64,000 bases of DNA from Taiwanofungus camphoratus (lineage: Eukaryota > Basidiomycota > Agaricomycetes > Polyporales > Taiwanofungaceae), in assembly GCA_003999685.1 (NCBI GenBank), contig CP021220.1, forward strand, positions 1-64,000. The letters are read 5' to 3'. Each line of letters opens with the position of its first letter. Within the stretch, counting starts at the first letter, position 1. The translations under genes and the position numbers were made by a program. The notes beneath the pieces were generated by a model that saw only the letters and a program-made list of their open reading frames with translations, was not told the origin of the DNA and did no database searches. Positions 1 through 24,486 of this stretch are shown here, one piece after another.

Positions 1-92
1 CTAACCTAACCTAACCTAACCTAACCTAACCTAACCTAACCTAACCTAACCTAACCTAACCTAACCCTAACCTAACCTAACCTAACCTAACT
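1..92. repeat. Terminal telomeric array, (CCTAA)n / (TTAGG)n
   Basis: The first base of the window lies inside an uninterrupted array of the pentamer CCTAA, with one six-base unit (CCCTAA) near base 66. The C-rich strand reads inward, the orientation expected at a left chromosome end. The array stops where sequence homologous to the downstream U units begins (GATAACTAC at 93). The pentamer is unusual because most fungi, including most studied basidiomycetes, use TTAGGG. Confidence 0.95.
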
Positions 93-807
93 GATAACTA
101 CTATGGTCCCCAGCGCCCCTCTGCTGTGTTAGTCCATGATCTGGTGATCTGTGGGTTGTAACATGCTAGAGCACGGTGCGGCAACTTGCTGGACGCGGTC
201 CTATTGAGTATCCTTCCCCCGCCCCGCATGGCTCGGATAGGGTGCTCACGGGGATTCCCAGGTTTGTGCCATGACATGATGCTTCCTCAGTGGTCCACGC
301 TGCCCTTAGTAGACGCCCGGAAAGCGGCCCGGTCACATGATCGGTACGGCACCGGCTATGTTGTTCCTATCTATATCCGGCCCGGATTAACTTTCGGCCC
401 GGACTTCCTATCTCTTATCTCGGATCCTGAGCCTAGGCTTGCGGTCCGGATTCTAATCTTAATCAGATGACTCTGACATCTGATCAGTAATGGTGTCTAG
501 GCGAATCTAGACAATGATGATTGCTCATCGCTGACTGATTAGGATAGGAGGGAGAGACGTGATTCGCTCCCACTTGCAACCCTTTGCCCTGGTACGGTCA
601 AACTGACTTAGTCACCGGCCCCCGGGCCATGACTCAACCATAAGCGTGACTTATGTTGAACTTGGTTATAAGCGACGCTAGTGCTCTGATGAGACTTAGT
701 CGAAATTAGCCGTCCGATAGCGATATCGGGCTAATTAGTACTAGCTTCCTCTAAGCCTCCCCTCCTGCCCTGCACTCGCAGCCCTTGTAGTGTTGATACA
801 TAGACCT
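93..807 (+). mobile_element. U1: leader / pLTR-like unit of the telomeric Penelope-like element
   Basis: This unit is nearly identical, without indels over 93-745, to 4862-5514. It lacks the first ~144 bases of the longer copies, so it is 5'-truncated and capped by telomere repeats. It contains three GGCCCGG motifs (326, 379, 396), a TATA-like GGTTATAAG just before 677, and a hammerhead ribozyme at 677-745. It ends in CATAGACCT directly before CCTAA repeats. The position upstream of the reverse transcriptase and the ribozyme match the pLTR regions of other PLEs. I infer that it is promoter plus 5' leader. It holds no convincing protein gene. Confidence 0.8.
677..745 (+). ncRNA. Hammerhead ribozyme, type I, copy 1
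   Basis: The core matches the hammerhead consensus. The strand reads GCUAGUGCU (helix I), CUGAUGA (core), GAC-UUA-GUC (helix II), GAA (core) then AUUAGCC (helix III). Helix III is extended by CCGAUA-GCGA-UAUCGG with a GNRA loop and closes with GGCUAAU. The predicted cleavage site follows the U at 736, and AGUACUAGC (737-745) re-pairs with helix I with one G-U pair. Both ends lie in helix I, so this is type I. Ribozymes of this class are established parts of PLE leaders, where they cut tandem transcripts into units. Activity here is inferred from base pairing. Confidence 0.92.
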
Positions 808-819
808 CCTAACCTAACC
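808..819. repeat. Short telomeric stub between U1 and PLE body
   Basis: Twelve bases, CCTAACCTAACC, separate U1 from the leader of the complete reverse transcriptase copy. At the same place in the second unit the tract is 25 bases long. Confidence 0.85.
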
Positions 820-3800
820 AGCCAACACCTCCAAACTGTCTCTCATACCGCATCTCGGTTTTCGACGGCGCTATCGTGTTCTGCCACCGACACCCCCGCC
901 CGTCAACCCGATCCAGGAATACCGACTGCTCGCCCTTTGCTTCGCTCGGTGCCCTATCTCTTTTCATTTTCTCCCTCCTGACGCACCCTGCGCTTGCTTA
1001 CAATGGCCAATCGCCTACCTCGTCCTGGATCCACCCGTTCGACTTCCGCAGGACCAGGTGGAGCATCACTTCGCGCCGCTATTGCGCGGAACCTTGCTCC
1101 CCCCTCGTTGGCTTATGCCATGGGAGCGACGTCACTTGAGACTATTGCCGATGAGTTCCGCGCCGTCCTTTCAGCTGAAACATTTGACACCGTATTATCA
1201 GTCGTGCCTCTCGTATACCGGGAGGTACTCCGCCCGGTTCTGGCTAGCATTGCGGAAGCAAAGGAACGCTGCGTTTCTTTGTCGAAGCAAGTGGGTGAGC
1301 TCGAGGCTCATCTTGCCAGCGGTTCCCTTCCGCCCCAGTTACAAGGCATGGGGGAACCCGTTTTCCAGTCTGCGAAAGCATGGCTGGAAACACACCCGGC
1401 GGAACCAGGGGCTCTTGCGGAGAAATTTAAAACGTTTCGCCGCGAAGCACTCGCTTTAGCCATAGCGCAAAAGCGTGCTGAGCTCTCGTTCTTCGAGGGC
1501 GCGCTGGACCCGACTACTATGTTGGGGAAGGCACGCGACGTGGTCGACACTCAGTGGGCTGCGATCTCACAAGGATCGCGGGTCCCTAAGTGGAGAACCT
1601 CTCTTGACGGGAACGTCGAGATTGAGGGTTGGCAGAACGACCCCGTCCTTGAGTCGGAACACAAGCGATTCGTCGCTGTGCTCCCACGGTTTTGCTTCCG
1701 TGTCGTGAATATTCGCGAATCACAGTTAGCACATGCCGCGACTCGAGCCAATGCGAAGAGTGCCCTTAAGGCAGTGGCGGAGGTGGAGATGAGCGACACC
1801 ACCGAGAATCCCGCTGCCTTAAAGAAACTGATCGACGATGCGGTTGATCGTCGGCTGAAAGGTGAGGGCACCTCGAAGAACGTAAAACAGCAGGTTAGTT
1901 TTGTACACGGTTCAGTACCTAAAAACTTACCTGGCGCCACCCTCTCTCGTATTCTAGAAGGGCAAAGGCAAGGCGCCAAATCGTTCGGCGCGCATGAGCA
2001 CAGGAGGACGCCCTCCCAAAGCTCCGCAGCGCGCGGCAAAGCAGAAGCAGGCCGCTTCGTCGAAGAAGGCTTCGACGAAGAAGAACAAAGGGAAAGGGAA
2101 AGGGAGACCGAATTGATACGGTGTGTCCTTCGGTCGCGACTCCGCTTCTCGCAACCCTCTACTTACCCGGATTGTATACTCGATCTTCCTACACCAGTCG
2201 GGGCACGCACCCTCCTTTACTTTGCACCGGCGGCTTTAGTCGAAGCACAGAGGTTCCGGACTTGGGTTCATGTTGGCGATGGTGTTAGTTTACCTGCGGA
2301 CATCAGTATACATATTTCTTGCGGACTTAAGTACATGCTGTACGCTCGCCCTTCAGGCGAGTTAGTTCAAAACGCTTACGATGACTTTTGTGAACGTGTA
2401 CGATGGAGAGTACACTTTGCCTGTAAACAAAAGATCCTTGAGCGGCAAGGAATAAGTCAACCACCTTACGATCCTGACTACGACTTGAGGCTTAAACGCG
2501 ATAGCAACGCACCTCAAGCCAGCCAATATATCGAACTTGGTCTTAAACGCGGGCAAACATACGTCACTGAATTCATACGCACTGTCGTACCCGGTTTGAA
2601 AGCTAGAAGTCGCCCTAATCGACTTGTAGACCTGGACAAAGTTCGCCTCTGGTTGGATGAGCATAACTACCTCATCCTCCAAACGGATAAGAACCTCGGC
2701 GCTGCTGTAGTCACAAGGGAATGGTTCATAAATGGTTGCAATTTGCTTTTGTCGAATACGACTGACTATCAGGAAATTAACCCTGGTCAGCGACAAATGT
2801 ATCTAGAAAAGGTTACTAAGCGGGTTAAGGAGTTAAGCGATTGGGTCGAAGGGGCTATGCCTCACGATCAGACACTCCAGTTAGCCAAATATCTTCGGTC
2901 TAAATGTCCCGAGAGCGAGTTGGAAGAGCCTAAGGTTCCGATCTTCTACGGTATCCCAAAAATCCATAAGACACCCGTGAAGATGCGGCCTATTGTGCCC
3001 TGTCACTCATGCGCTCAAGGCCCCGCGGCTAAAGTAGTATCCAAGTTGTTGAAACCTATCATAGAGGTAGAACCCTTTATTATACATGGCAGTAAAGATC
3101 TTGCTGCCAAGTTAGCAACGGTTAAAACACTAAAATATAAAAAGTATTGGCTTGTGGCCGGCGACGTTGTCGCTTTCTACCCCAATGTACCTCTCAGAGA
3201 ATGCGTAGGCATTGTATCTAAATTGTACATTAGTCATCCATTGGGTAGTCAATCAACGGACCACCCCGAATTTTACAACGCCTTGTTTATTCGGTGTATG
3301 CAATCAGCCAATTACGATTTAATAGTTGACTTCAACGGTCACACATTCCTTCAAAAACGAGGGTTAGCTATGGGAGTGGCCTGTTCGCCCGACCTAGCTA
3401 ATCTATATGGATGCCATTTTGAAAATAAAGTCTGGCCTCATGGGCAGGTTAGCCCACCCTTTCTTTATTATGGGCGGTACATCGATGATGTTTTCGCTAT
3501 CGTTGAAGCAGGTAGTGCAGCAGAGGCTCTTGAACTCTGTACCAGTCGTATTTCGTACACTGGCTGCACTATAACATGGGAAGTGTCGGAATGGGCAACG
3601 CCGTTCCTTGACATGCTTATTTATATTGACCCCGTTACCAACCGGGTGGAACATAAGCCGTATCGGAAAGCACTTAACCATCATGAAAGAATACCATGGA
3701 TATCTCACCACCCAAAGGACGTTAAAAAAGGCACGTTCATTGGGGAGATGAGCCGTTTAGCTACGCTAAGTTCTAAGTTGGAACACTACTTAGATGCCCT

Positions 3801-4617
3801 TAAAGGGCTTGTCGATTTGTACATCGGCCGTGGCTATCCTCCTGCTCTGGTTATTACATGGCTTGATGCACATAAAGCAGTACGCTGGGCGAAACGTTTG
3901 GAAACTAAACAAACTTCGACCAAAGCGGCGGATGCGAATGATGGCGTACTTGTAATTAAGTCACAATTCAACCCTTCATGGGATTCTTTCGATGTTCATG
4001 AATTAATGACACGTGTCACTGGATCTTGGGTGGAGTCTTTGAGCTTCTTCAAAAACTTTTTTTCGGCGAGTTGGGAAAACTCGGCTGCCCCGATTTTCGA
4101 TTATTCGGCTGGGGGTTCGCGGGATGCGACCCTATCCGGCACAGTTCAGACCACGCTTGAGGAGTGGTGGGATCCCGCCCGAGTAGCCCAGCGCAAGCTG
4201 TCGCGCGAAACGGCGGCTGCTTCGGCAGCAGCAGATCGTGCCGCCGCTGAAGCCCGGCGGTCTGATCAAATCTCTACACTGGCGGCGGCTGTCCATGACA
4301 ACCGCGCAGAAGAGGGCTGGGTATGGACTGGGCGGTACCTAAGGAAACCCACCGGATTTATTGAGGCGGAGAAGGTCGCAGACCTTTCCCAACTCGGATT
4401 CTTAGACAAGCGCTGGCTTGTGTCTCGAAAGCGGGAAACCAATTTCGCAGACTTAGCAAGTAAATGGCGCAGAAGTGTTATTAACGCCCAAAGTGCGGAT
4501 GACGTTCTTTTGGAAATGAATATATAAACTGTTAAGTCAGTTTGATTAGCATCGGTTACATCAGGTGTAACGTTATCTTAGTGTGTTGGTGTATTAGGGT
4601 TGTCTGTTCAAACCAGA
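820..4617 (+). mobile_element. Penelope-like retroelement copy 1, Coprina/Athena type, endonuclease-less
   Basis: The body consists of a 183-base pyrimidine-rich leader (820-1002), one intact reading frame (1003-4527) and a 90-base 3' region that ends exactly at CCTAA repeats. The element reads away from the telomere with its 3' end on C-strand telomere repeats. This is the orientation produced when the G-strand 3' end of the chromosome primes reverse transcription. Endonuclease-less PLEs found at telomeres in rotifers and basidiomycete fungi (Athena, Coprina) have this layout. It carries no LTRs, gag, integrase or GIY-YIG domain. It looks whole and potentially coding. Confidence 0.85.
1003..4527 (+). 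CDS. Penelope-like reverse transcriptase, intact, about 1,174 aa
   Basis: RNA-dependent DNA polymerase of the telomere-associated PLE. The true ATG is at 1003 (MANRLPRPGS); the frame is open slightly upstream but without another ATG. The first ~450 residues are basic and acidic with no domain I recognise. RT motifs follow in order: TDKNLG near residue 563, GIPKIHK near 650 and MRPIV near 660, GDVVAFYPNV near 719 (motif A Asp), GLAMGVACSPDLANLY near 788 (motif B), YIDD near 826 (motif C), and a PLE-like thumb ending in GRGYPP. The C-terminal ~150 residues include an Ala/Arg-rich probable coiled coil. No GIY-YIG nuclease is visible, consistent with priming at chromosome ends. It differs from the second copy by about 14 residues over ~1,124. 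Confidence 0.93.
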   Translation: MANRLPRPGSTRSTSAGPGGASLRAAIARNLAPPSLAYAMGATSLETIADEFRAVLSAETFDTVLSVVPLVYREVLRPVLASIAEAKERCVSLSKQVGELEAHLASGSLPPQLQGMGEPVFQSAKAWLETHPAEPGALAEKFKTFRREALALAIAQKRAELSFFEGALDPTTMLGKARDVVDTQWAAISQGSRVPKWRTSLDGNVEIEGWQNDPVLESEHKRFVAVLPRFCFRVVNIRESQLAHAATRANAKSALKAVAEVEMSDTTENPAALKKLIDDAVDRRLKGEGTSKNVKQQVSFVHGSVPKNLPGATLSRILEGQRQGAKSFGAHEHRRTPSQSSAARGKAEAGRFVEEGFDEEEQRERERETELIRCVLRSRLRFSQPSTYPDCILDLPTPVGARTLLYFAPAALVEAQRFRTWVHVGDGVSLPADISIHISCGLKYMLYARPSGELVQNAYDDFCERVRWRVHFACKQKILERQGISQPPYDPDYDLRLKRDSNAPQASQYIELGLKRGQTYVTEFIRTVVPGLKARSRPNRLVDLDKVRLWLDEHNYLILQTDKNLGAAVVTREWFINGCNLLLSNTTDYQEINPGQRQMYLEKVTKRVKELSDWVEGAMPHDQTLQLAKYLRSKCPESELEEPKVPIFYGIPKIHKTPVKMRPIVPCHSCAQGPAAKVVSKLLKPIIEVEPFIIHGSKDLAAKLATVKTLKYKKYWLVAGDVVAFYPNVPLRECVGIVSKLYISHPLGSQSTDHPEFYNALFIRCMQSANYDLIVDFNGHTFLQKRGLAMGVACSPDLANLYGCHFENKVWPHGQVSPPFLYYGRYIDDVFAIVEAGSAAEALELCTSRISYTGCTITWEVSEWATPFLDMLIYIDPVTNRVEHKPYRKALNHHERIPWISHHPKDVKKGTFIGEMSRLATLSSKLEHYLDALKGLVDLYIGRGYPPALVITWLDAHKAVRWAKRLETKQTSTKAADANDGVLVIKSQFNPSWDSFDVHELMTRVTGSWVESLSFFKNFFSASWENSAAPIFDYSAGGSRDATLSGTVQTTLEEWWDPARVAQRKLSRETAAASAAADRAAAEARRSDQISTLAAAVHDNRAEEGWVWTGRYLRKPTGFIEAEKVADLSQLGFLDKRWLVSRKRETNFADLASKWRRSVINAQSADDVLLEMNI

Positions 4618-4633
4618 CCTAACCTAACCCTAA
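4528..4633 (+). other. Structured 3' end of PLE RNA
   Basis: Two folds are visible. GTTACA (4555-4560) pairs with TGTAAC (4566-4571) around a five-base loop. TTAGGGTT (4594-4601) is an exact complement of AACCCTAA (4626-4633) in the adjoining telomeric tract, and encloses GTCTG (4602-4606) paired with CAGAC (4614-4618). Thus the last bases of the element can fold back onto the telomere-like repeat. Both folds are repeated unchanged at 8977-9082. A role in RT recognition or priming is inference. Confidence 0.6.
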
Positions 4634-4717
4634 CCTAACCTAACCTAACCTAACCGAACCTAACCTAACCTAACCTAACCTAACCTAACGCTAATCCTAA
4701 CCTAACCTAACCTAACC
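4618..4717. repeat. Internal telomere-like tract with irregular units (T2)
   Basis: About 100 bases of CCTAA repeats with a CCCTAA unit and two irregularities, CCGAACC and ACGCTAATCC. The same irregularities occur in identical positions at 9067-9166, and ACGCTAATCC with its flank recurs at 10730-10788. Shared irregular units show these tracts have a common ancestor and were not made independently by telomerase. Confidence 0.95.
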
Positions 4718-5576
4718 GCCGGACTCTCCCAGTCCTGCGCTTAGGGTTGCCTTAAAATAGATAGGCGCCTTACGTGTCACATGATATGTTCGGCACTTAG
4801 TACGGACCGGCCCTTCATTGCGGCCCGGTGCGCGCCGTTCCCGCATGCTAGCGGAGCGCGCGATAACTACTATGGTCCCCAGCGCCCCTCTGCTGTGTTA
4901 GTCCATGATCTGGTGATCTGTGGGTTGTAACATGCTAGAGCACGGTGCGGCAACTTGCTGGACGCGGTCCTATTGAGTATCCTTCCCCCGCCCCGCATGG
5001 CTCGGATAGGGTGCTCACGGGGATTCCCAGGTTTGTGCCATGACATGATGCTTCCTCAGTGGTCCACGCTGCCCTTAGTAGACGCCCGGAAAGCGGCCCG
5101 GTCACATGATCGGTACGGCACCGGCTATGTTGTTCCTATCTATATCCGGCCCGGATTAACCTTCGGCCCGGACTTCCTATCTCTTATCTCGGATCCTGAG
5201 CCTAGGCTTGCGGTCCGGATTCTAATCTTAATCAGATGACTCTGACATCTGATCAGTAATGGTGTCTAGGCGAATCTAGACAATGATGATTGCTCATCGC
5301 TGACTGATTAGGATAGGAGGGAGAGACGTGATTCGCTCCCACTTGCAACCCTTTGCCCTGGTACGGTCAAACTGACTTAGTCACCGGCCCCCGGGCCATG
5401 ACTCAACCATAAGCGTGACTTATGTTGAACTTGGTTATAAGCGACGCTAGTGCTCTGATGAGACTTAGTCGAAATTAGCCGTCCGATAGCGATATCGGGC
5501 TAATTAGTACTAGCTTCCTCTAAGCCTCCCCTCCTGCCCTGCACTCGCAGCCCTTGTAGTGTTGATACATAGACCT
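4718..5576 (+). mobile_element. U2: full-length leader unit
   Basis: The longest form of U (about 860 bp). It starts CGCCGGACTCTCCC after the telomere-like tract and ends GATACATAGACCT before CCTAA repeats. The first ~144 bp are absent from U1. The rest matches U1 with almost no differences. It includes further GGCCCGG motifs, the TATA-like GGTTATAAG and the second hammerhead ribozyme. Confidence 0.85.
5446..5514 (+). ncRNA. Hammerhead ribozyme, copy 2
   Basis: Same sequence as copy 1: helix I GCUAGUGCU/AGUACUAGC, core CUGAUGA and GAAA, helix II GAC/GUC, helix III closed by a GCGA tetraloop. Cleavage in this copy and in copy 1 would release an RNA carrying the complete reverse transcriptase frame. 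Confidence 0.92.
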
Positions 5577-5601
5577 CCTAACCTAACCTAACCTAACCTA
5601 A
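5577..5601. repeat. Telomeric tract between U2 and truncated PLE body
   Basis: Five CCTAA units join U2 directly to the middle of the reverse transcriptase frame. This is the expected scar of a 5'-truncated insertion that was healed with telomere repeats before the next unit was added. Confidence 0.9.
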
Positions 5602-8600
5602 GAGTTCCGCGCCGTCCTTTCAGCTGAAACATTTGACACCGTATTATCAGTCGTGCCTCTCGTATACCGGGAGGTACTCCGCCCGGTTCTGGCTAGCATT
5701 GCGGAAGCAAAGGAACGCTGCGTTTCTTTGTCGAAGCAAGTGGGTGAGCTCGAGGCTCATCTTGCCAGCGGTTCCCTTCCGCCCCAGTTACAAGGCATGG
5801 GGGAACCCGTTTTCCAGTCTGCGAAAGCATGGCTGGAAACACACCCGGCGGAACCAGGGGCTCTTGCGGAGAAATTTAAAACGTTTCGCCGCGAAGCACT
5901 CGCTTTAGCCATTGCGCAGAAGCGTGCTGAGCTCTCGTTCTTCGAGGGCGCGCTGGACCCTACTACCATGTTGGGGAAGGCGCGCGACGTGGTCGACACT
6001 CAGTGGGCTGCGATCTCACAAGGATCGCGTGTCCCTAAGTGGAGAACCTCTCTTGACGGGAACGTCGAGATTGAGGGTTGGCAGAACGACCCCGTCCTTG
6101 AGTCGGAACACAAGCGATTCGTCGCCGTGCTCCCCCGCTTTTGCTTTCGTGTCGTGAACATTCGCGAATCACAGTTAGCTCATGCGGCGACTCGAGCCAA
6201 TGCGAAGAGTGCCCTTAAAGCAGTGGCGGAGGTGGAGATGAGCGACACCACCGAGAACCCCGCTGCTTTAAAGAAACTGATTGACGATGCGGTTGATCGT
6301 CGGTTGAAAGGTGAGGGCACCTCGAAGAACGTTAAACAGCAGGTCAGTTTTGTACACGGTTCAGTACCTAAAGACTTACCTGGCGCCACCCTCTTTCGTA
6401 TTTTAGAAGGGCAAAGGCAAGGCGCCAAATCGTTCGGCGCGCATGAGCACAGGAGGACGCCCTCCCAAAGCTCCGCAGCGCGCGGCAAAGCAGAAGCAGG
6501 CCGCTTCGTCGAAGAAAGCTTCGACGAAGAAGAACAAAGGGAAAGGGAAAGGGAGACCGAATTGATACGGTGTGTCCTTCGGTCGCGACTCCGCTTCTCG
6601 CAACCTTCCACTTACCCTGATTGTATACTTGATCTACCTACACCAGTCGGGGCACGCACCCTCCTTTACTTTGCACCGGCAGCTTTAGTCGAGGCACAGA
6701 GGTTCCGGACTTGGGTTCATGTTGGCGACGGTGTTAGTTTACCTGCGGACATCAGTATACACATTTCTTGCGGACTTAAGTACATGCTGTACGCTCGCCC
6801 TTCAGGCGAGTTAGTTCAAAACGCTTATGATGACTTTTGTGAACGTGTACGATGGAGAGTACACTTTGCCTGTAAACAAAAGATCCTTGAGCGGCAAGGA
6901 ATTAGTCAACCACCATATGATCCTGACTACGACTTGAGATTAAAGCGCGATAGCAACGCGCCTCAAGCCAGCCAATACATCGAACTTGGTCTTAAACGCG
7001 GGCAAACATACGTCACTGAATTCATACGCAATGTCGTACCCGGTTTGAAAGCCAGAAGTCGCCCTAATCGACTTGTGGACCTGGATAAAGTTCGCCTCTG
7101 GCTGGATGAGCATAACTACCTCATCCTCCAAACGGATAAGAACCTCGGTGCTGCTGTAGTCACTAGGGAATGGTTCATTAATGGTTGCAACTTACTTCTG
7201 TCAAATACGGCTGACTATCAGGAAATTAATCCTGGTCAACGACAGATGTATTTAGAAAAGGTTACTAAGCGGGTTAAGGAGTTAAGCGATTGGGTCGAAG
7301 GGGCTATGCCTCACGATCAGACACTCCAGTTAGCCAAATACCTTCGGTCAAAATGTCCCGAGAGCGAGTTGGATGAGCCTAAGGTTCCCATCTTCTATGG
7401 TATCCCAAAAATCCATAAGACACCAGTGAAGATGCGGCCTATTGTGCCCTGTCACTCATGCGCTCAAGGCCCCGCGGCTAAAGTAGTATCCAAGTTGTTG
7501 AAACCTATCATAGAGGCTGAACCCTTTATTATACATGGCAGTAAAGATCTTGCTGCCAAGTTAGCAACGGTTAAAACACTAAAATATAAAAAGTACTGGC
7601 TTGTGGCCGGCGACGTAGTCGCTTTCTACCCCAATGTACCTCTCAGAGAATGCGTAGGCATTGTATCTAAACTGTACATTAGTCATCCACTTGGTAGTCA
7701 ATCAACGGACCACCCCGAATTTTATAATGCCTTATTTATTCGGTGCATGCAATCAGCCAATTACGATCTAATAGTTGACTTCAACGGTCACACATTTCTT
7801 CAAAAGCAAGGATTAGCAATGGGAGTGGCATGTTCGCCCGACCTTGCTAATTTATATGGATGCCATTTTGAAAATAAAGTCTGGCCTTCTGGGCAGGTTA
7901 GCCCACCCTTTCTTTATTATGGGCGGTACATCGATGATGTATTCGCTATCGTTGAAGCAGGTAGTGCAGCAGAGGCTTTAGAACTCTGCACCAGTCGTAT
8001 TTCATATACTGGATGTACTATAACATGGGAAGTGTCGGAATGGGCAACGCCATTCCTAGACATGCTTATTTATATTGACCCCGTCACCAACCGGGTGGAA
8101 CATAAGCCGTATCGGAAAGCACTTAACCATCATGAAAGAATACCATGGATATCTCACCATCCAAAGGACGTTAAAAAAGGCACGTTCATTGGGGAGATGA
8201 GCCGTTTAGCCACGCTAAGTTCTAAGTTGGAACACTACTTGGATGCCCTTAAAGGGCTTGTCGATTTGTACATCGGCCGTGGTTATCCCCCTGCTCTGGT
8301 TATTGCATGGCTTGACTCGCATAAAGCAGTACGCTGGGCGAAACGTTTGGAAACTAAACAAACTTCGACCAAAGCGGCGGACGCGAATGATGGCGTACTT
8401 GTAATTAAGTCACAATTCAACCCTTCATGGGATTCTTTCGATGTTCATGAATTAATGACACGTGTCACTGGATCGTGGGTGGAGTCTTTAAGTTTTTTCA
8501 AAAACTTCTTTTCGGCGAGTTGGGAAAACTCGGCCGCTCCGATTTTCGATTATTCGGCTGGGGGTTCGCGGGATGCGACCCTATCCGGCACAGTTCAGAC

Positions 8601-8976
8601 CACGCTTGAGGAGTGGTGGGATCCCGCCCGAGTAGCCCAGCGAAAGCTGTCGCGCGAAACGGCGGCTGCCTCGGCAGCAGCAGATCGTGCCGCCGCTGAA
8701 GCCCGGCGGTCTGATCAAATCTCTAACCTGGCGGCGGTTGTCCATGATAACCGCGCAGAAGAGGGCTGGGTATGGACTGGGCGGTACCTAAGGAAACCCA
8801 CCGGATTTATTGAGGCGGAGAAGGTCGCAGACCTTTCCCAACTCGGATTCTTAGACAAGCGCTGGCTTGTGTCACGGAAAAGGGAAACCAATTTCGCTGA
8901 CTTAGCAAGTAAATGGCGCAGAAGTGTTATTAATGCCCAAAGTGCAGATGATGTACTATTGGAAATGGATATATAA
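5602..8976 (+). CDS. Penelope-like reverse transcriptase, 5'-truncated copy 2
   Basis: The frame starts at the telomeric junction at the codon matching Glu51 of copy 1 and stays open to the stop at 8976. The first 50 codons, including the normal ATG, are missing, so this copy probably cannot be translated from its own start unless an internal ATG is used. All reverse transcriptase motifs are present (GIPKIHK, AFYPNV, SPDLANLY, YIDD). The nucleotide differences I checked against copy 1 fall mostly on third codon positions. Confidence 0.9.
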   Translation, partial: EFRAVLSAETFDTVLSVVPLVYREVLRPVLASIAEAKERCVSLSKQVGELEAHLASGSLPPQLQGMGEPVFQSAKAWLETHPAEPGALAEKFKTFRREALALAIAQKRAELSFFEGALDPTTMLGKARDVVDTQWAAISQGSRVPKWRTSLDGNVEIEGWQNDPVLESEHKRFVAVLPRFCFRVVNIRESQLAHAATRANAKSALKAVAEVEMSDTTENPAALKKLIDDAVDRRLKGEGTSKNVKQQVSFVHGSVPKDLPGATLFRILEGQRQGAKSFGAHEHRRTPSQSSAARGKAEAGRFVEESFDEEEQRERERETELIRCVLRSRLRFSQPSTYPDCILDLPTPVGARTLLYFAPAALVEAQRFRTWVHVGDGVSLPADISIHISCGLKYMLYARPSGELVQNAYDDFCERVRWRVHFACKQKILERQGISQPPYDPDYDLRLKRDSNAPQASQYIELGLKRGQTYVTEFIRNVVPGLKARSRPNRLVDLDKVRLWLDEHNYLILQTDKNLGAAVVTREWFINGCNLLLSNTADYQEINPGQRQMYLEKVTKRVKELSDWVEGAMPHDQTLQLAKYLRSKCPESELDEPKVPIFYGIPKIHKTPVKMRPIVPCHSCAQGPAAKVVSKLLKPIIEAEPFIIHGSKDLAAKLATVKTLKYKKYWLVAGDVVAFYPNVPLRECVGIVSKLYISHPLGSQSTDHPEFYNALFIRCMQSANYDLIVDFNGHTFLQKQGLAMGVACSPDLANLYGCHFENKVWPSGQVSPPFLYYGRYIDDVFAIVEAGSAAEALELCTSRISYTGCTITWEVSEWATPFLDMLIYIDPVTNRVEHKPYRKALNHHERIPWISHHPKDVKKGTFIGEMSRLATLSSKLEHYLDALKGLVDLYIGRGYPPALVIAWLDSHKAVRWAKRLETKQTSTKAADANDGVLVIKSQFNPSWDSFDVHELMTRVTGSWVESLSFFKNFFSASWENSAAPIFDYSAGGSRDATLSGTVQTTLEEWWDPARVAQRKLSRETAAASAAADRAAAEARRSDQISNLAAVVHDNRAEEGWVWTGRYLRKPTGFIEAEKVADLSQLGFLDKRWLVSRKRETNFADLASKWRRSVINAQSADDVLLEMDI

Positions 8977-9082
8977 ACTGTTAAGTCAGTTTGATTAGCA
9001 TCGGTTACATCAGGTGTAACGTTATCTTAGTGTGTTGGTGTATTAGGGTTGTCTGTTCAAACCAGACCTAACCTAACCCTAA
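8977..9082 (+). other. Structured 3' end of PLE copy 2
   Basis: Same two stem-loops as at 4528-4633, including TTAGGGTT complementary to AACCCTAA in the adjacent tract. Confidence 0.55.
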
Positions 9083-9166
9083 CCTAACCTAACCTAACCT
9101 AACCGAACCTAACCTAACCTAACCTAACCTAACCTAACGCTAATCCTAACCTAACCTAACCTAACC
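9067..9166. repeat. Internal telomere-like tract (T4), duplicate of 4618-4717
   Basis: Identical in length and in its irregular units (CCGAACC, ACGCTAATCC) to the tract 4,449 bases upstream. Confidence 0.95.
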
Positions 9167-10024
9167 GCCGGACTCTCCCAGTCCTGCGCTTAGGGTTGCC
9201 TTAAAATAGATAGGCGCCTTACGTGTCACATGATATGTTCGGCACTTAGTACGGACCGGCCCTTCATTGCGGCCCGGTGCGCGCCGTTCCCGCATGCTAG
9301 CGGAGCGCGCGATAACTACTATGGTCCCCAGCGCCCCTCTGCTGTGTTAGTCCATGATCTGGTGATCTGTGGGTTGTAACATGCTAGAGCACGGTGCGGC
9401 AACTTGCTGGACGCGGTCCTATTGAGTATCCTTCCCCCGCCCCGCATGGCTCGGATAGGGTGCTCACGGGGATTCCCAGGTTTGTGCCATGACATGATGC
9501 TTCCTCAGTGGTCCACGCTGCCCTTAGTAGACGCCCGGAAAGCGGCCCGGTCACATGATCGGTGCGGCACCGGCTATGTTGTTCCTATCTATATCCGGCC
9601 CGGATTAACCTTCGGCCCGGACTTCCTATCTCTTATCTCGGATCCTGAGCCTAGGCTTGCGGTCCGGATTCTAATCTTAATCAGATGACTCTGACATCTG
9701 ATCAGTAATGGTGTCTAGGCGAATCTAGACAATGATGATTGCTCATCGCTGACTGATTAGGATAGGAGGGAGAGACGTGATTCGCTCCCACTTGCAACCC
9801 TTTGCCCTGGTACGGTCAAACTGACTTAGTCACCGGCCCCCGGGCCATGACTCAACCATAAGCGTGACTTATGTTGAACTTGGTTATAAGCGACGCTAGT
9901 GCTCTGATGAGACTTAGTCGAAATTAGCCGTCCGATAGCGATATCGGGCTAATTAGTACTAGCTTCCTCTAAGCCTCCTTCCTGCCCTGCACTCGCAGCC
10001 CTTGTAGTGTTGATACATAGACCT
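9167..10024 (+). mobile_element. U3: full-length leader unit without a following RT body
   Basis: Nearly identical to U2, with a small deletion close to the 3' end. It is followed by telomere repeats and then another U, not by a reverse transcriptase. It is either the trailing leader of the second PLE unit or a solo leader insertion. Confidence 0.85.
9895..9963 (+). ncRNA. Hammerhead ribozyme, copy 3
   Basis: Same sequence and pairing as copies 1 and 2. Confidence 0.92.
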
Positions 10025-10090
10025 CCTAACCTAACCTAACCTAACCTAACCTAACCTAACCTAACCTAACCCTAACCTAACCTAACCTAA
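10025..10090. repeat. Telomeric tract (T5)
   Basis: CCTAA repeats with one CCCTAA unit between U3 and U4. Confidence 0.93.
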
Positions 10091-10729
10091 CATGCTAGAG
10101 CACGGTGCGGCAACTTGCTGGACGCGGTCCTATTGAGTATCCTTCCCCCGCCCCGCATGGCTCGGACAGGGTGCTCACGGGGATTCCCAGGTTTGTGCCA
10201 TGACATGATGCTTCCTCAGTGGTCCACGCTGCCCTTAGTAGACGCCCGGAAAAGCGGCCCGGTCACATGATCGGTGCGGCACCGGCTATATTGTTCCTAT
10301 CTATGTCCGGCCCGGATTAACCTTCGGCCCGGACTTCCTATCTCTTATCTCGCATCTTGAGCCCAGGCTTGAGGTCCGGATTCTAATCTTAATCAGATGA
10401 CTCTGACATCTGATCAGTAATGGTGTCTAGGCGAATCTAGACAATGATGATTGCTTATCGCTGACTGATTAGGATAGGAGGGAGAGACGTGATTCGCTCC
10501 CACCTGCAACCCTTTGCCCTGGTACGGTCAAACTGACTTAGTCACCGGCCCCCGGGCCATGACTCAACCATAAGCGTGACTTATGTTGAACTTGGTTATA
10601 AGCGACGCTAGTGCTCTGATGAGACTTAGTCGAAATTAGCCGTCCGATAGCGATATCGGGCTAATTAGTACTAGCTTCCATTAAGTCTTCTCAACGCTCG
10701 CAACTCCTTCGTCGTTGCTCGCTCCACCT
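10091..10729 (+). mobile_element. U4: 5'-truncated leader unit with a different 3' tail
   Basis: Begins at CATGCTAGAGC, inside U, directly after telomere repeats. It is more diverged than U1-U3, with a one-base insertion (CCGGAAAAGC) and several substitutions. After the ribozyme its tail (TTAAGTCTTCTCAACG and onward) is unrelated to the tails of U1-U3 and U5, yet it also ends at CTCCTAACC. It therefore represents a separate subfamily. Confidence 0.8.
10607..10675 (+). ncRNA. Hammerhead ribozyme, copy 4
   Basis: The ribozyme is unchanged although the surrounding U4 sequence and tail have diverged. Confidence 0.92.
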
Positions 10730-10788
10730 CCTAACCTAACCTAACCTAACCTAACCTAACGCTAATCCTAACCTAACCTAACCTAACC
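10730..10788. repeat. Telomere-like tract (T6) sharing irregular units with T2 and T4
   Basis: Contains ACGCTAATCC followed by four regular units and then CGCCGGAC, exactly as in front of U2 and U3. The irregular repeat therefore travels with the 5' end of U. Confidence 0.93.
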
Positions 10789-11650
10789 GCCGGACTTTCC
10801 CAGTCCTGCGCTTAGGGTTGCCTTAAAATAGATAGGCGCCTTACGTGTCACATGATATGTTCGGCACTTAGTACGGACCGGCCCTTCACTGCGGCCCGGT
10901 GCGCGCCGTTCCCGCATGCTAGCGGAGCGCGCGATAACTACTATGGTCCCTAGCGCCCCTCTGCTGTGTTAGTCCATGATCTGGTGATCTGTGGGTTGTA
11001 ACATGCTAGAGCACGGTGCGGCAACTTGCTGGACGCGGTCCTGATGAGTATCCTTCCCCCGCCCCGCATGGCTCGAACAGGGTGCTCCCGGGGATTCCCA
11101 GGTTTGTGCCATGACATGATGCTTCCTCAGTGGTCCACGCTACCCTTAGTAGACGCCTGGAAAAGCGGCCCGGTCACATGATCGGTGCGGCACCGGCTAT
11201 GTTGTTCCTATCTATGTCCGGCCCGGATTAACCTTCGGCCCGGACCTCCTATCTCTTATCTCAGATCTTGAGCCCAGGCTTGCGGTCTGGATTCTAATCT
11301 TAATCAGATGACTCTGACATTTGATCAGTAATGGTGTCTAGGCGAATCTAGACAATGATGATTGCTCATCGCTGACTGATTAGGATAGGAGGGAGAGACG
11401 TGATTCGCTCCCACCTGCAACCCTCTGCCTTGGTACGGTCAAACTGACTTAGTCATCGGCCCCCGGGCCCTGACTCAACCATAAGCGTGACTTTGGTTGA
11501 ACTTGGTTATAAGCGACGCTAGTGCTCTGATGAGACTTAGTCGAAATTAGCCGTCCGATAGCGATATCGGGCTAATTAGTACTAGCTTCCACTAAGCCTC
11601 CTCCTTCCTGCCCTGCACTTGCAGCCCTTGTAGTGTTGATACATAGACCT
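10789..11650 (+). mobile_element. U5: full-length, older leader unit
   Basis: Full-length like U2 and U3 but with more substitutions spread along it, and the same 3' tail ending CATAGACCT. Its greater divergence fits an older insertion closer to the chromosome interior. Confidence 0.83.
11518..11586 (+). ncRNA. Hammerhead ribozyme, copy 5
   Basis: All core, stem and loop bases match copies 1-4 despite divergence elsewhere in U5. Confidence 0.92.
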
Positions 11651-11680
11651 CCTAACCTAACCTAACCTAACCTAACCCTA
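11651..11680. repeat. Telomeric tract (T7)
   Basis: About five CCTAA units ending CCCTA directly against the truncated U6. Confidence 0.9.
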
Positions 11681-11748
11681 AGTGCTCTGATGAGACTTAG
11701 TCGAAACTAGTTGTCTGCCCCCCCATAGGTGAACTAGTTAGTACTAGC
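11681..11748 (+). ncRNA. Hammerhead ribozyme, copy 6, with compensated helix III
   Basis: The core CUGAUGA, helix II GAC-UUA-GUC and GAA are unchanged. Helix III is ACUAGUU pairing with AACUAGU in place of AUUAGCC/GGCUAAU, with a different 20-base loop. Seven pairs are kept although the sequence changed. The downstream arm AGUACUAGC is intact. The upstream arm is cut to AGUGCU by the telomeric junction. Confidence 0.85.
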
Positions 11749-11817
11749 ATCACTAAGTCTCAGCTCTTTCAAGCCTGTATCGCACTCACAGCACCTGCGG
11801 CGCTGCTCGCTCTTCTT
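11681..11817 (+). mobile_element. U6: strongly truncated, diverged leader unit
   Basis: Only the ribozyme and a distinct 3' tail remain. The truncation point falls inside helix I of the ribozyme. The tail is unlike those of U1-U5 but again ends CTTCCTAACC. This is the innermost and most diverged copy. Confidence 0.75.
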
Positions 11818-11828
11818 CCTAACCTAAC
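11818..11828. repeat. Innermost telomeric stub (T8)
   Basis: CCTAACCTAAC, two units, marks the junction between the element array and chromosomal sequence. I infer that it is the remnant of an old chromosome terminus. Confidence 0.75.
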
Positions 11829-11829
11829 T

Positions 11830-11877
11830 CTTAGTTCAGTTCAAGTGTGGGTGTGACACATTTGTAACTGAACTAAG
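11830..11877. repeat. Perfect 12-bp inverted repeat next to the telomeric stub
   Basis: CTTAGTTCAGTT (11830-11841) is exactly complementary to AACTGAACTAAG (11866-11877) with a 24-base spacer. It lies two bases from the last telomeric repeat. It could be a hairpin or the end of a small transposon. No function is apparent. Confidence 0.75.
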
Positions 11878-11893
11878 GACCTAAGGTCTGTCC

Positions 11894-12201
11894 TAGTGTT
11901 GCGGTTGAGTCGAGTAACTCGTTCGACAGCTCGACGAGTTGGTGTTTCTGATAACATAAGCATGATCTCACGCAGTGATTGGCTAGCTTGCTGTTCCAGC
12001 TGCCTCTTACATAAGCACCATCAATTCAGACTCAGCACGTGAGCTGAGACATCGAAGGTGAGCCCTTCGATGCTTGGATTCTATTGGCTGCCTGACACGG
12101 CCCGGTTTCACCCTAACTCGCGAGTCAACTCGCAACTCGCCTCAAAGAAACTCAGTTTTTTGAGTTTTGTCGAGTTTGTGACTCGACTCGTCGCAACACT
12201 A
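11894..12201. mobile_element. MITE-like element with hAT-type terminal inverted repeats
   Basis: TAGTGTTGCG at 11894 is matched by CGCAACACTA ending at 12201. The match extends imperfectly inward (GAGTCGAGT versus ACTCGACTC), giving roughly 22-bp TIRs around 308 bp with no coding capacity. The ends fit the YARNG start typical of hAT transposons. I do not see a clear 8-bp target-site duplication, so the exact edges are uncertain. GAGTC/GACTC words recur internally. Confidence 0.65.
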
Positions 12202-12992
12202 GTTCTAAGCTGGTGTCACACCAGCTTTTGCGATTGAATATTGAGCTAGCAACCTACTTAGTGTGATGTTTGCAGGTCACTTAGCACAATGTGGAGGAAA
12301 ACAGCATAAATCATAAGACTCAACTTACATATATAGTAATTTACAAGCCACACTTGAACACAGACTTACTCTCTGCTGCCAAGCATGACTTTGATATCTG
12401 AAATGCAACTATAGATCAAGGTGAGTGAGCTGCATTCTTGGTATATCTGTGTAATGTCATTAAGGAGCTGGAAGCCTTTGCAAAACTGTTTGCAAACAGA
12501 CTCCAAAAGACATTCAAGCCACCTGTAAAAAGACAAAACTACAGTGGTTTTCATTGCAACTGTCTTATTTCTTGCTTCTATAGGACGCCACTAGAGTTTA
12601 CAAGCTGTTTTGAGTCTCAACTGAAGGCTGAACAGCCAGGAAACGGTGTTTTTCGCCTGTGTGACCAATGGTTTGGACCCCAGTTCAGACTCCCTTGGGA
12701 CGCGTGACATTTGAACTAACTGCCCAGTTCAAGGGGGCCTGTGACGCGTGACTGAACCTATGGTCGTGCCAGTACAGTATATTCTACGGTCATGCTCGTG
12801 CCTCGCGCTCACTTAGAAGCCGAACAATTGCGCCCACTCCTTTTATGGAAACCTGACGGCCAACAAATGGCTGAATCAGGATGCGTAGTCGCGAGACACG
12901 CTTCCGGTGCCCACTCAGTGTGGCCGTGGCTGATGCGGTTTGCGGGGCATATAGATTGACACGTAGCTACTACTCTCTCTCACACATCTGTG
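12202..12992 (+). promoter_or_regulatory. Upstream region of the PARP gene, with two MluI-type boxes
   Basis: No gene is visible here. A near-perfect palindrome AGCTGGTGTCACACCAGCT lies at about 12209. A 10-bp direct repeat GACGCGTGAC occurs at 12699-12708 and 12743-12752, flanking an inverted TTGAACT/AGTTCAA. Each direct repeat contains ACGCGT, the MluI cell-cycle box bound by MBF in fungi. They lie about 240-295 bases before the PARP ATG. Regulation by MBF is inference. Confidence 0.4.
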
Positions 12993-15900
12993 ATGCCACC
13001 ACGAAAGAAAGCTTCAGCAGACGCGTCCACCTCTACACATCCTTCTGCTACACGCAGGAGTACTCGTAACAAAGCACCAACATCTAAAGTGTCGGTCACT
13101 GCACCGAGCTCAAAGGGCAAGGACAAGGGTAAGCGAGGACGTGATGATTCTGACAATGAAGACGAAGACATCCCGGATAGCAAGAAGGTCAAAACTGATA
13201 GCGTCTTGGGAGACGACACATCTAAAGTGGATGATGTGCTTCCCAAGAAAATGGTAAGTTGGCGGCAAGGCCCTTACAATCTCGGAGTGGAGAGACTAAT
13301 CCTTTTCAGGTCACTGTCCTCAAACGAGGAGCAGTGCCTGTTGATCCTTGTTCTGGGTTTAGCGGTGAGTTCAAGCTTGCTCCTTCAGATTTGCCGTGAA
13401 CATATAAATCGCGAATCCTGAATCGCTTTGGATTTGCACAGATACACATCAAGTTCTTACCACGGAGGAAGATGTTTGGGATGCTACACTCAATCAAACA
13501 GATATTGGCAAAAATGCGAACAAGTTTGTGCCACTTTACCCAGCGCCTGTCATGCCGCTGACACTGACGTTCACACAAGATTCTACATAATCCAAGTTCT
13601 ACACCCAGACAACAGTACGGATAACTGTATCTTATTCACCCGTTGGGGACGTGTGGGTGAGAACGGGCAGCAGCAGAAGAAGGTTTGGATCTCTCGCCGG
13701 TATAATCAACTGGTGCATGTCTTAATGGCCTCCTAGGGGCCGTTTTCCGCTGGAACCGCAGTCAACGAATTCAAAAAACAATTCAAGGCCAAGGCCGCAG
13801 TCGCTTGGGAACAAAGGCACGGAATGGTTTCCAAAAAAGGTTTGGAGTGGCCCTACTGTCTATACTGCAATCCGTCTGATTGCACATGACCGCTTCTAAC
13901 AGGAAAGTATCAGTGGATAGGTGAATTGGGTAACTATCTCATATTGTATCGAACATTTCTCATGACCTGGCGGTAGAACGTGTATTCGAGGATGAGGAAG
14001 ATTCCGAGAAAAATGCCGACGCTGATTCATCGAAGAAGGATGAACCAGAGAGAATCCCAGACTCGACCTTAGCTCCGGAAATTCAGGTTTGTCGCCCTGT
14101 CGCGAAAGCTTTCGCATGCCTTACAAGAGCATCAGACCCTTTGTAGGCTTATATTTTCAGCGAAGTGAGGATGAATTCCCGAATTAATTCGCCCTCGTTC
14201 TTAACCCCATGTCAACCTGTCATTTCCGAATAGACTCATTGATATTCATCTCTCGTCGATGAATTACGATGCAAATAAACTTCCTCTTGGTACCGTGTAT
14301 CAAATATCGTTACCGTTGGAGTCATTTCTGACAGTTCTGCAGGGAAACTTGCCAAGTCAACTATCTTGAATGGGTTTGCAGCGTTGAAGGTGTGCAATGT
14401 GTTACGATCGTCCTCACTGAGCCCTTAGCGCTGAGATAACCGCCGTCATGCGCTTGAGTAGAAATTGTCAGAGGTGCTTGCGCAGCCTGATGGAGACGCG
14501 GCTAAACAGATGGGGGGATTCCGCTCCGCCGTAGAAGAGTTGACCGGCAGATACTACTCGTAAGTCGCATTCCAATGCAGTATGCTGGCTTCTCAGCCCT
14601 TGAGTCACCAGGATCATCCCGCACGTCTTCGGAAGGAATAGACCAACTATAATAGACGATATGGCCACCTTGAAGAGGGTGGGTGCTTTTCTCCTTAATC
14701 TGATTACCGCCATCCTTATACTCTCTCAGGAGTTGGAATTGGTCGATGCGCTCGGAGATATGGTCTGTACCTATCATTCTTCGGGACCCACATACGTTGT
14801 TTACTCCCCAGTTTTAAGGAAATCGCCTCCAAGCTCATAGCGTCTTCAGTCCCGAAAGGTGCCGATGGAAAACCTATCAATCCTCTTGACGCGAATTTCC
14901 TCTCACTTCGCCTCTCGGCCATGAACCCTGTTTCTGCAAGCACCAAGGAATTTGCTGCTCTACAAGCTTATGCTCGGGACACTCATGGGGCAACGCATCA
15001 ACATTACCAGGTACAAGTGCAATATGCATTCAGAGTCGATAGGTATAGCATTGGTTCTCTTACTACTGGTCAGTGTAGGTCACTGACGACGGGTTAGGCA
15101 AGAGGAGATGGATGCTTGGGTGAAATCAGGACATAATGCGTTGGCTGACGGAGAGCGGCTTCTTCTCTGGCACGGATCTCGGACTACCAATTTCGCTGGT
15201 GCGTCCACTGTTCCCTTTGTGAACCATTCACCTAGTAAACTTATGCGATGGGTTTATAGGCATCCTCAAGCAAGGGCTACGTATTGCTCCTCCAGAAGGT
15301 GTGTCTTATCCATGAGTAATCTTTTTTCTGAAAGCTTGACTCGAGATCTATAGCACCCGTTACCGGTATGATTCATAACCGGTACTGACCTTGGACGAGT
15401 GTACTGAATAAATCACAGGATATATGTTTGGGAAAGGTGTCTACTTTGCTGATGTGAGTATGTGCAATGCGCCTGTCGGATTCGAGCTGACGTCTCTCCT
15501 CACAGATGATGTCCAAAGTGTGTATGCGTCCGTTGACACTGATCCGAGGCGAACTGATCTATCGCTTATCAAGTCTGCCAACTATTGTCATGCCTAGTGA
15601 GTCGTCATTCAACACCATAGCACGTGAAGTCGATTCCATCGTTCTCTGCAGTTTGAGCGACAACACTGGGGTACTCCTGTTGTGCGAAGTCGCAGCAAAA
15701 CCGTTTTTTGAGCAACATCAAGCCAACTATAACGGCGACGCAGACTGTAAAGAAGCCGGAAAGCTGTGCGTGTGAAAACATTATTGAGCTTCCGTTAACT
15801 GATAGCGTACGATGATCTAACAGGTGCACCAAGGGCCTCGGACGAACACAGCCTGTAGAGTGGCAGGATGCGGGCGTAGCTTTGGAAAATGAAGCATTGA

Positions 15901-22154: not shown

Positions 22155-24486
22155 TCAAGCAACCAGCGCTCCGACCTTCTTTCTCATGTCCTTGGCCTTG
22201 CTCGAACCCCTCCCCTTCGTCTTACCAAACACAACCACTTTGCCACTTTCACCCGCTCTCCCTGAACGTCCAGCACGATGGAGGAAGTCGACCATGTTGC
22301 GCGGCTCGTCCACAATAAAGACATGCTTGATTGACGGAGAGAAATCCAACCCACGAGAGAGGAGAGATGTTGTGATCATGACATGAGGGTGTTCCTTGAC
22401 ATCGTCCAAAGCAGAACTATCAGCCGGGGACGCGCTTGAGGCAGCCGCCTCGATAGCTTTGCCCTCAGCAACTGCAGCGCGTTCATGTTCCCTGAGGAAA
22501 CCATCGAGATGATGATTCGAGCCGCGCTTTCGCGCGTCACTCGTGCTTGTCAATGCCACATTCGCGATTGCCTTCTCTTTGAGATATCTCCCTAGGTCCT
22601 CTACTTTTGTGCTCTTGTTGCAAAATATTAGGATCTTCGACTTTTTTCCATATCCGGTAATCATGTCATCATACCACACACGTCGAATCCGTTGTTCAAT
22701 GTCAGCATTGCGGTTTCCTCCCGTCCAGCTCGAGTACTCGGTCTTGAGAGTCGATGGCAGGTGATGCAGGTTAGGGGACGCCAGTCGAACAAGAGACGGG
22801 TGGTGCTTGTCAAGGTACCAAGCAAGAGCAGAAGGTATGGTTGCGGTACTTAGAATAAGATGGAACGGATAGTCCTGTGGGGCAGGCAAGGTCTCTGGGC
22901 TGACTCGCAGCCGTCGATCAAGAGGTGCTGGTTGACCGCGTGCTTGGCTGATCTCCGCTAAGATCATCTTTGTGTGCTCCTGGAAATCGGGATCTGCGGT
23001 TCGCAACGAGTCAATTGGCTGCGACCTCCCAACAAACACGCAAGCCTACCGAATAGAACGTCCGCCTCGTCTACCACCACCCATTCTACTCCATGGAGGC
23101 TCATTTCAGGTTTGCCCACGGTAAATCTCCGTGGCTTGATCGTCTTCCCATTTTCGTCTACATCCCATGTATCCTCGACTTTTGGTTGCTCGTAGTCCCA
23201 CCCTCTTCCCTTCACCATCTCCAAGATCTTCGACGGCGTGCCAACGACAACATCAACAGGTCGCACGCCCTTTTTCTTCAGCACCACCTCGGAGCTGTCT
23301 GCAGCATTGGTCGTTCCATCGAACTCATGCGCCATCTTCGACGCCGTCACGTTCCTCTTCGAAGTGCTTGGCAAGTTCGCTTGCGAGACGCAGAGCACCC
23401 GAAGCTTGATCTGATGCAGGAGCGCTTTTGCGAAGCCAGAAAGTTGGCGTGAAAGTTCGTGTGTAGGCGCGAGGACTATGGCACGCGGATTCAGTGGTGT
23501 CCATGGCCGGGTGTCATGGGACGTCGAAGAGGGATCGGGACTCAATTCGGAGAGCTTGAGGTCTTGAAGCATAGGCAGAAGGTACGCGATTGACTTGCCT
23601 GAGCCCGTTTCCGACGCGAGTAAACATTGGTGCCACTGTGTTGTATTTTCTCCTTGCAACTGTGAGTCAGGACTAGGTTTGCTCCCGGCGAGAGGACGGT
23701 TGAAGAGATGCTTGAGGGACAATGCTTGTATAGGTGTAGGCCTCGCGTGAGGACCCAGGACATCAATCACCGAAGTCAACAAGCCATCCATGAGGGGTGG
23801 AGTGGTGAATTCGGTAGGCAGCTGACGTGTGGAAACAGACCGGACTGAAATGTCAAACTCGTCACTCAGTGGATTATAGACTTGAGCCTTGGACGGGGCT
23901 GTAGTTTCTTGCCCCTTGTCCTCCTTCACGCCATAATTTGCGGTTTTGAGCAGCTGCTCTTTTGATGTCCTCCATGGCTTGTCGAAGTCAGGAAGGCCTC
24001 GAGATTCCGCAGCATTGGGCTTTCTGTCCTGCCATTTCCGTTGCGATCCCGAATGAGTGGGCTTTGATCTTCTTTCTGGATTTCTGTCTCTGGTCCCGGT
24101 ACGATTTCCTAGGTCTGCTGATTTCTTCCGTGTGTCTCGTACTTCGGAGTGTGGGGCGGCATCACGAACACGAGGTGCAACTTCAAGTATACCGGACGTC
24201 TGCTTCGACGCAAGTCGAGGAGAGAGAGATTTCACGAGGCGTGTTCGTGACGGTGCATCTAAGACCGTGATGCGGTGTCAATCAGTCTAAAGCCACAACT
24301 TGGAAGGATGCAAAAGCACAACCTACTCGGCGGGGCAGATTTTTTGGATACACCTAGTTTACGCTCATCTGCAGAACGCTTTCGTACAAGACAAGGCACG
24401 GAAGTATGGAAGCAAGACAACCAGAGCTCTTGAGGTAGAGCAGATCCATGCCGAATGGCAGAACGAGAAGAGGCGAAAAGTGACAT
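22155..24486 (-). CDS. MRH4: Mitochondrial DEAD-box RNA helicase, MRH4-like
   Basis: ATP-dependent RNA helicase. In yeast Mrh4 acts in assembly of the large mitochondrial ribosomal subunit. The chosen ATG is at 24486 (MSLFASSRSAIRHGSALPQ), whose basic, Ser-rich start fits a mitochondrial presequence. A short intron follows, then a long basic linker. Helicase motifs appear in order: RPTPIQALSL (Q motif), ASETGSGKS (I), LAPTHELSRQL (Ia), VVGTPSKIL (Ib), VVDEADVLF (II), LSTATIPS (III), LIFCNKSTKVEDL (IV), TSLLSRGLDF (V) and HRAGRSGRAG (VI). An intron lies directly after motif II. An extended insertion before HPHVMITT is Ala/Ser-rich. Confidence 0.9.

Follow-up and report, generated by a model that had tools for sequence, protein, structure and literature searches.

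The outermost part of contig CP021220.1 (positions 1 to 64,000, a stretch of 64 kb referred to here as the window) carries a row of six hammerhead folds set among telomere-like repeats. Judged from its sequence, this array most probably records successive attachments, several times and at one chromosome end, of a telomere-attaching Penelope-like retroelement (PLE) without an endonuclease, a reading to which we assign a probability of about 0.76. Alignment together with a helix descriptor gives the layout U-ORF-U-ORF-U, in which U is the 3'-end or pseudo-long terminal repeat (pLTR) unit, ORF is an open reading frame for ORF1 and a reverse transcriptase (RT), present as copies 1 and 2, and every U contains a hammerhead; this is the tandem, pLTR-bearing arrangement of PLEs. 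All copies have one orientation, with the 5' end distal and the 3' end proximal. The period of the array is 4.4-4.8 kb; each of the two copies, both 5'-truncated, shows a single long frame, and accessory ORFs were not seen. The hammerhead cores are spaced irregularly (4769, 4449, 712, 911 and 160 nt).

The junctions between copies fit this reading. A CCTAA run stands directly before a 5'-truncated copy at all four points that can be resolved (91/92, 5601/5602, 10091/10092 and 11680/11681); the 5' edge of U5 falls somewhere within repeats. At the other end, a CCTAA tract follows 63-78 nt downstream of the predicted cleavage site in six of six copies, which supports the fusion of the hammerheads to telomere repeats reported in the preliminary description of this region. 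The array thus has the characters of endonuclease-deficient, telomere-attached PLEs of the Athena/Coprina kind: no GIY-YIG domain, reverse-complement telomere repeats at the 3' end (6/6) and truncations at telomere repeats (4/4 resolvable). The U bodies also diverge inward, as repeated attachment at the chromosome end predicts, with 1-2 differences in 514 sites among U1-U3, 9-11 between these and U4 and 21-23 between these and U5; the most changed hammerhead is that of U6, the innermost unit. Units with a ribozyme and no RT, pointed out earlier, look like 5'-truncated copies. U forms the element's 3' end, so a copy truncated from the 5' side can be reduced to U, and solo units call for no special function or other explanation. 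The features of the array, on the + strand unless noted, are as follows.

1-91, no strand assigned: terminal (CTAAC)n telomere repeats, C-strand, 91 nt
92-807: U1, 3'-end/pLTR unit, 5'-truncated at about 92 (alignment, junction)
677-745: hammerhead 1, predicted cut after 736 (helix descriptor)
808-819: CCTAACCTAACC, telomere-complementary, at the boundary of U1 tail and ORF leader (junction analysis)
820-1002: ORF leader, present once only
1003-4527: ORF1-RT of copy 1, in a frame open over 982-4527 that has its first in-frame ATG at 1003 (RVT_1 below cut-off, endonuclease domain not found)
1894-1957: putative 64-nt intron of copy 1 (frame and copy comparison)
4617-4717: telomere-like tract internal to the element, copy 1, identical to 9066-9166
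4718-5576: U2 (alignment)
5446-5514: hammerhead 2, predicted cut after 5505 (helix descriptor)
5577-5601: (CCTAA)5 linking U2 to 5'-truncated copy 2 (repeats, junction)
5602-8976: ORF1-RT of copy 2, 5'-truncated (weak RVT_1)
9066-9166: telomere-like tract internal to copy 2, identical to 4617-4717
9167-10024: U3 (alignment)
9895-9963: hammerhead 3, predicted cut after 9954 (helix descriptor)
10025-10091: CCTAA repeats, 13.2 copies, linking U3 to truncated U4 (repeats, junction)
10092-10729: U4, 5'-truncated, 3' tail unlike the others (alignment)
10607-10675: hammerhead 4, predicted cut after 10666 (helix descriptor)
10730-10788: telomere-like tract with CGCTAATCC variant (also in 4617-4717), holding the 5' edge of U5 (repeats, junction)
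10789-11650: U5 (alignment)
11518-11586: hammerhead 5, predicted cut after 11577 (helix descriptor)
11651-11680: telomere repeats adjoining truncated U6 (repeats, junction)
11681-11748: hammerhead 6, within U6, whose truncation lies 6 nt upstream of the core; stem III altered yet pairing; predicted cut after 11739
11749-11827: U6 tail, its last part two CCTAA repeats

The descriptor required a stem I of at least 5 bp, CTGANGA, a stem II of at least 3 bp, GAAA, a stem III of at least 4 bp and a NUH cleavage triplet. Across the window it identifies six loci on the + strand (cores CTGATGAGACTTAGTCGAAA at 686, 5455, 9904, 10616, 11527 and 11687) and none on the - strand; 200 dinucleotide-preserving shuffles of the whole window, searched on both strands, yield none. 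With the stems relaxed to 4, 2 and 3 bp, seven loci appear over all 200 shuffles, and the real window returns the same six only. Stems I, II and III are 9, 3 and 7 bp long in U1-U5 and 6, 3 and 7 bp in U6; the core, the three helices and the open stem I of a type I hammerhead are found in all six, and the cleavage triplets are AUU and GUU. Both the row of six and its type I geometry had been claimed before and hold up here, and the predicted cleavages give product ends at 737, 5506, 9955, 10667, 11578 and 11740, exactly those proposed earlier. The looser string CTGATGAN{3,30}GAAA matches seven times where 1.49 matches are expected, the seventh (29933) failing the helix descriptor. On this evidence the hammerhead folds are best taken as a real set, within a known kind of telomeric retroelement. 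Because they lie on the C-rich strand only, a G-rich RNA of the telomeric repeat-containing (TERRA) type would not carry them.

As already observed in the preliminary description, five of the six copies (U1-U5) are identical, here over 69 nt. When columns gapped in any of the five are dropped, the hammerhead has no variable site among 69, the U body upstream of it has 27 among 514 and the tail downstream 22 among 49. Under uniform placement, the probability of zero variable hammerhead sites is 0.03 for body and hammerhead, and 0.003 with the tail added. The selection that this identity was said to imply is only modestly supported; argued from the identity alone it is weak, and we do not rely on it. 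U6 is more informative. Its hammerhead differs from that of U1-U5 at 17 of 66 aligned positions. None of these falls in the core, in stem II or in the six stem I pairs left after truncation, which removed the outer three. In stem III, both partners differ in three of the seven pairs without loss of pairing, four pairs are unchanged and none is broken. All six changed bases are transitions, and if only transitions occur the three positions would match by chance about once in 35. These compensatory changes are the best evidence for a real RNA, and coming from two distinct sequences only they lend support rather than proof.

The two long frames agree with an element of this kind. RVT_1 matches both weakly (982-4527, E 3.8e-5, 23.9 bits; 5602-8976, E 1.2e-4, 22.3 bits), in line with the association with a PLE-like RT suggested earlier, and in a Pfam search of both ORFs up to E 0.01 it is the sole family, with no GIY-YIG or other endonuclease. 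The copies differ by 115 synonymous and 18 nonsynonymous changes; as the proportion of synonymous sites changed (pS 0.147) is far above the nonsynonymous one (pN 0.007), the RT-bearing protein appears to be under purifying selection. NCBIfam returns antiviral, retron and group II RT matches only, all weak (E 0.002-0.035) and far under their cut-offs; a PDB sequence search with the ORF has no match at E up to 1, and an AlphaFold model of the RT region built from two nearly identical rows reaches a pLDDT of 35.7, too low to be of use.

Further features of the copies concern their expression and history. A putative 64-nt intron (GTTAGT...TTCTAG) lies at 1894-1957 and 6343-6406. Its removal would lead into the +1 frame, where ORF1 would end in a Lys-rich tail (...KKNKGKGKGRPN) with its stop at 2114-2116; with the intron retained, the frame runs on into the RT. 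Between the copies, differences number 4 in the 64 nt of the intron, 1 in the 159 nt of the two-frame block that follows (1958-2116) and 109 in the 2408 nt of the RT part; the spliced-frame protein tail of the block is unchanged. Splicing may select between ORF1 and an ORF1-RT fusion. The copies are mosaic when 1153-1463, 1464-4519 and 4528-5577 are set beside the corresponding parts of 5602-10025. No differences occur in the initial 311 nt of the comparison; across most of the ORF middle 17-18% of synonymous sites differ, fewer in the putative intron and the two-frame block; and the 1050 nt of 3' noncoding sequence, tract and U hold two substitutions and one indel. Recombination, gene conversion or template switching among element lineages is the likely source of this pattern. 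The degenerate telomere-like tract of 101 nt upstream of U is carried within the element, and its two copies (4617-4717 and 9066-9166) are identical, variants CCGAACC and CGCTAATCC included.

A number of results weigh against the retroelement reading. At gathering scores none of the 4227 Rfam families matches anywhere in the window, so the covariance-model check on both strands that the preliminary description called for came out negative. A permissive Rfam search restricted to positions 1-14000 finds the RAGATH-1 hammerhead (RF03152) for five of the six copies, at 24.9 bits against a gathering score of 56.3 and with E 1.8, and has no match for U6 up to E 5. By nearest-neighbour energies, a structure other than the hammerhead is favoured by 3.1 kcal/mol for U1 and by 1.7 for U6, and the minimum-energy fold in longer sequence context is likewise not a hammerhead. 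Simple folding energies leave out the tertiary stabilisation of the hammerhead core; no loop-loop tertiary contacts were identified in these hammerheads. Both RVT_1 matches fall under the Pfam curated cut-off of 29.6 bits. The motifs GIPKIHK...MRPIV, DVVAFYPNVP, GLAMGVACSPDLANLY and YIDD, which we take to be those of a PLE-type RT, are assigned without a family model behind them, and a search of viral contigs with six peptide patterns detects no relative of the RT. The inward gradient does not hold for the U4 tail, which differs from U1 at 22 of 50 sites compared with 3 of 58 for the more inward U5. Finally, there may be another edge at 819/820, where U1 gives way to the ORF leader; as that leader (820-1002) occurs once only, U1 and ORF copy 1 may have come in one event or in two.

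Two of these subjects call for additional observations. The U4 tail (10676-10729) starts right after a hammerhead identical to the others, and it is somewhat nearer to the U6 tail (16 of 49 sites differ); it is as if tails had been exchanged at or near the ribozyme. The RAGATH-1 model shares with the present hammerheads the core and stem-loop II pattern CUGAUGAGACUUNGNCGAAA; its stem II is 1 bp, compared with 3 bp here, and its consensus triplet is GUC, compared with AUU or GUU here. Among matches to the degenerate string CTGATGAGACTTNGNCGAAA, four of five viral contigs reach the RAGATH-1 gathering score and none of five prokaryote genomes does. A core with a degenerate stem-loop II does occur in real hammerheads, and the exact stem II found here is absent from all ten matches. 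One viral contig site (3893-3912 of IMGVR_UViG_3300002514_002622) has the core string with possible stems (I of 7 bp with several wobbles, III of 4 bp, triplet AUU); it has no Rfam match at gathering and is perhaps due to chance. The snoRNA-like (small nucleolar RNA-like) Rfam matches Afu_190 and sR1 (E 2-5) were taken as chance.

Under the retroelement reading, the CCUAACC tract of the RNA would anneal to the G-rich 3' overhang exposed at the chromosome end. This overhang would then be extended by the RT along the RNA, through the tail, the hammerhead, U and, when complete, the ORF, with frequent early stops, after which telomerase would cap the chromosome end. A comparable pairing of reverse-complement telomere repeats beside a hammerhead with the G-rich overhang is proposed in the published Terminon model (PMC6431247; PMC12477314). 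The hammerhead would trim long read-through transcripts of the tandem array, setting a 5'-OH end upstream of the ORF. The template RNA itself would stay uncut, or be rejoined, at its own 3' hammerhead, because cutting detaches the annealing tail. The sequence is continuous across the cut site in all six copies, and none of the four resolvable truncation junctions lies at a cut site, from which it follows that the RNAs copied here were uncut at that site or rejoined. Uncut templates agree with an account of an Anolis PLE, which states that hammerhead cleavage is not required for insertion in vitro, that unprocessed RNA is the dominant substrate and that reverse transcription begins inside the template (PMC11167929).

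These observations bear on what the ribozyme does. It was suggested earlier that the chromosome end makes long RNAs which cut themselves to unit lengths; a long C-rich RNA processed in this way into units acting at the telomere for the host is very improbable here. The six hammerheads do share strand, orientation and tandem arrangement, but their spacing is irregular, truncation accounts for the solo units, and each cut would part the telomere-complementary tail from the RNA body, whereas the (CCUAA)n tract is kept in all six copies. What survives of an RNA acting at the telomere is a template able to anneal to the overhang; unit-length RNAs are not needed by the sequence. It is unlikely, to a lesser degree, that the hammerheads are incidental or inactive, with copying and not ribozyme function maintaining a conserved DNA or RNA-binding segment at the 3' end of the PLE. 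Uncut or rejoined templates in all six copies, the alternative folds favoured by simple energies and the Rfam scores under gathering would all fit such a segment, as would the Anolis PLE, for which cleavage is reported to be unnecessary for insertion in vitro and RNA-seq to show no ends where the cut would fall (PMC11167929). It is harder to square with a core that is complete in six of six copies and with the compensatory stem III changes of U6; the competing minimum-energy fold of U1 is, moreover, not the one predicted for U6, and most of the viral contigs bearing the degenerate string do reach the RAGATH-1 gathering score, though none with this exact stem II.

A circular template is also to be considered, although we hold it to be quite unlikely. 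Hammerhead products would be joined as circles and the RT would go round more than once, so that U1-ORF-U2 would be one template read about 1.2 times, joining having restored the cut site. The intact hammerhead in all six units would follow, and U1 and U2 differ at only 1 of 514 body sites, 0 of 69 in the hammerhead and 0 of 58 in the tail; but U2 is about equally close to U3 and to U1, and identity therefore does not single out a circle. The telomere-complementary stretch at 808-819, at the boundary of tail and ORF leader, would offer an internal landing site, and internal initiation has been described for a PLE (PMC11167929) and circles for retrozymes (PMC7229834). An ordinary linear pLTR-ORF-pLTR RNA fits equally well, however, U1 may have been added separately from ORF copy 1, and the tails of U4 and U5, differing at 22 of 50 sites, show that this pair is not one circle. 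Slightly more doubtful again is the broader proposal that the hammerhead is a cut-and-rejoin site, with array transcripts cut, circularised and read repeatedly by a telomerase-like RT from an internal telomere-complementary site. If it were true, chromosome ends would grow as RNA circles made by the ribozyme underwent rolling reverse transcription, and tail exchange at the hammerhead, as in U4 with its body near U1-U3, its identical hammerhead and its other tail, would be a by-product.

Gladyshev and Arkhipova reportedly described Coprina-type endonuclease-deficient PLEs of basidiomycetes in 2007. The present element resembles these as a PLE linked to telomeres in a probable fungal host. PLEs linked to Agaricus chromosome ends are described in PMC7473861, and published telomere-attached, endonuclease-less PLEs have hammerheads, 5' truncation and arrays, according to PMC6431247. 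The Terminons and Athena elements of bdelloid rotifers, as presented in PMC6431247 and PMC12477314, share with the array an RT without endonuclease, a hammerhead near the 3' end with reverse-complement telomere repeats downstream, telomere repeats at 5' truncations and head-to-tail arrays. Terminon units are giant (up to 40 kb) and carry accessory ORFs; the shorter period and single long frame per copy seen here come from two 5'-truncated copies, whose full length may be greater. The telomere unit here is TTAGG, stem III has 7 bp, and 63-78 nt separate the cut site from the repeats, which the reviews place immediately adjacent.

PLE and Terminon hammerheads are characterised in reviews as minimal, without helix III and/or tertiary contacts and with their role unknown (PMC6155905; PMC7761336; PMC7229834). 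The present ones share the type I topology, the pLTR location and the lack of identified loop-loop contacts with the minimal pLTR hammerheads (PMC6155905; PMC7761336). Those without helix III perhaps cut as dimers, whereas a 7-bp stem III could allow action as a monomer. Retrozymes are small non-autonomous units replicating via circular RNA; the solo units here are explained by 5' truncation. In Pleurotus, five type 3 hammerheads were found by Rfam 11, and the portion of that paper available does not mention PLEs (PMC5040776). Among the matches listed, in a literature only partially covered and hence no proof of absence, no report of hammerheads in a fungal telomeric PLE was found, and the accessible parts of PMC10085705 and PMC10088271 contain nothing on hammerheads in telomeric PLEs. 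What looks new is a telomeric PLE whose hammerhead has a stem III of 7 bp with compensatory changes and appears more complete than those of the reviews.

Farther inward, two ORFs on the - strand at 22155-24277, near the chromosome end, match DEAD and Helicase_C; perhaps they represent a subtelomeric helicase of the RecQ-like kind found in many fungi. By Pfam, these DEAD/helicase ORFs and a Peptidase_C54 (ATG4-like) ORF lie within 34 kb of the end; together with the putative 64-nt intron and the telomeric PLEs published from basidiomycetes, they point to a fungus as the probable host. Of 10 further ORFs in the window, two were matched by Pfam (molybdopterin oxidoreductase and oxysterol-binding), and neither these nor a PDB search with a Rab-like ORF gave information on the lineage.

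The array would be an ordered record of retroelement additions at a chromosome end, and it poses a contradiction: a ribozyme fold is kept in every copy, yet cleavage by it would take away the RNA segment that should anneal to the telomere. As far as they can be read, the junctions show that cut RNAs, unless rejoined, were not the templates of these copies. With its full stem III, the ribozyme would be testable as a single short RNA.

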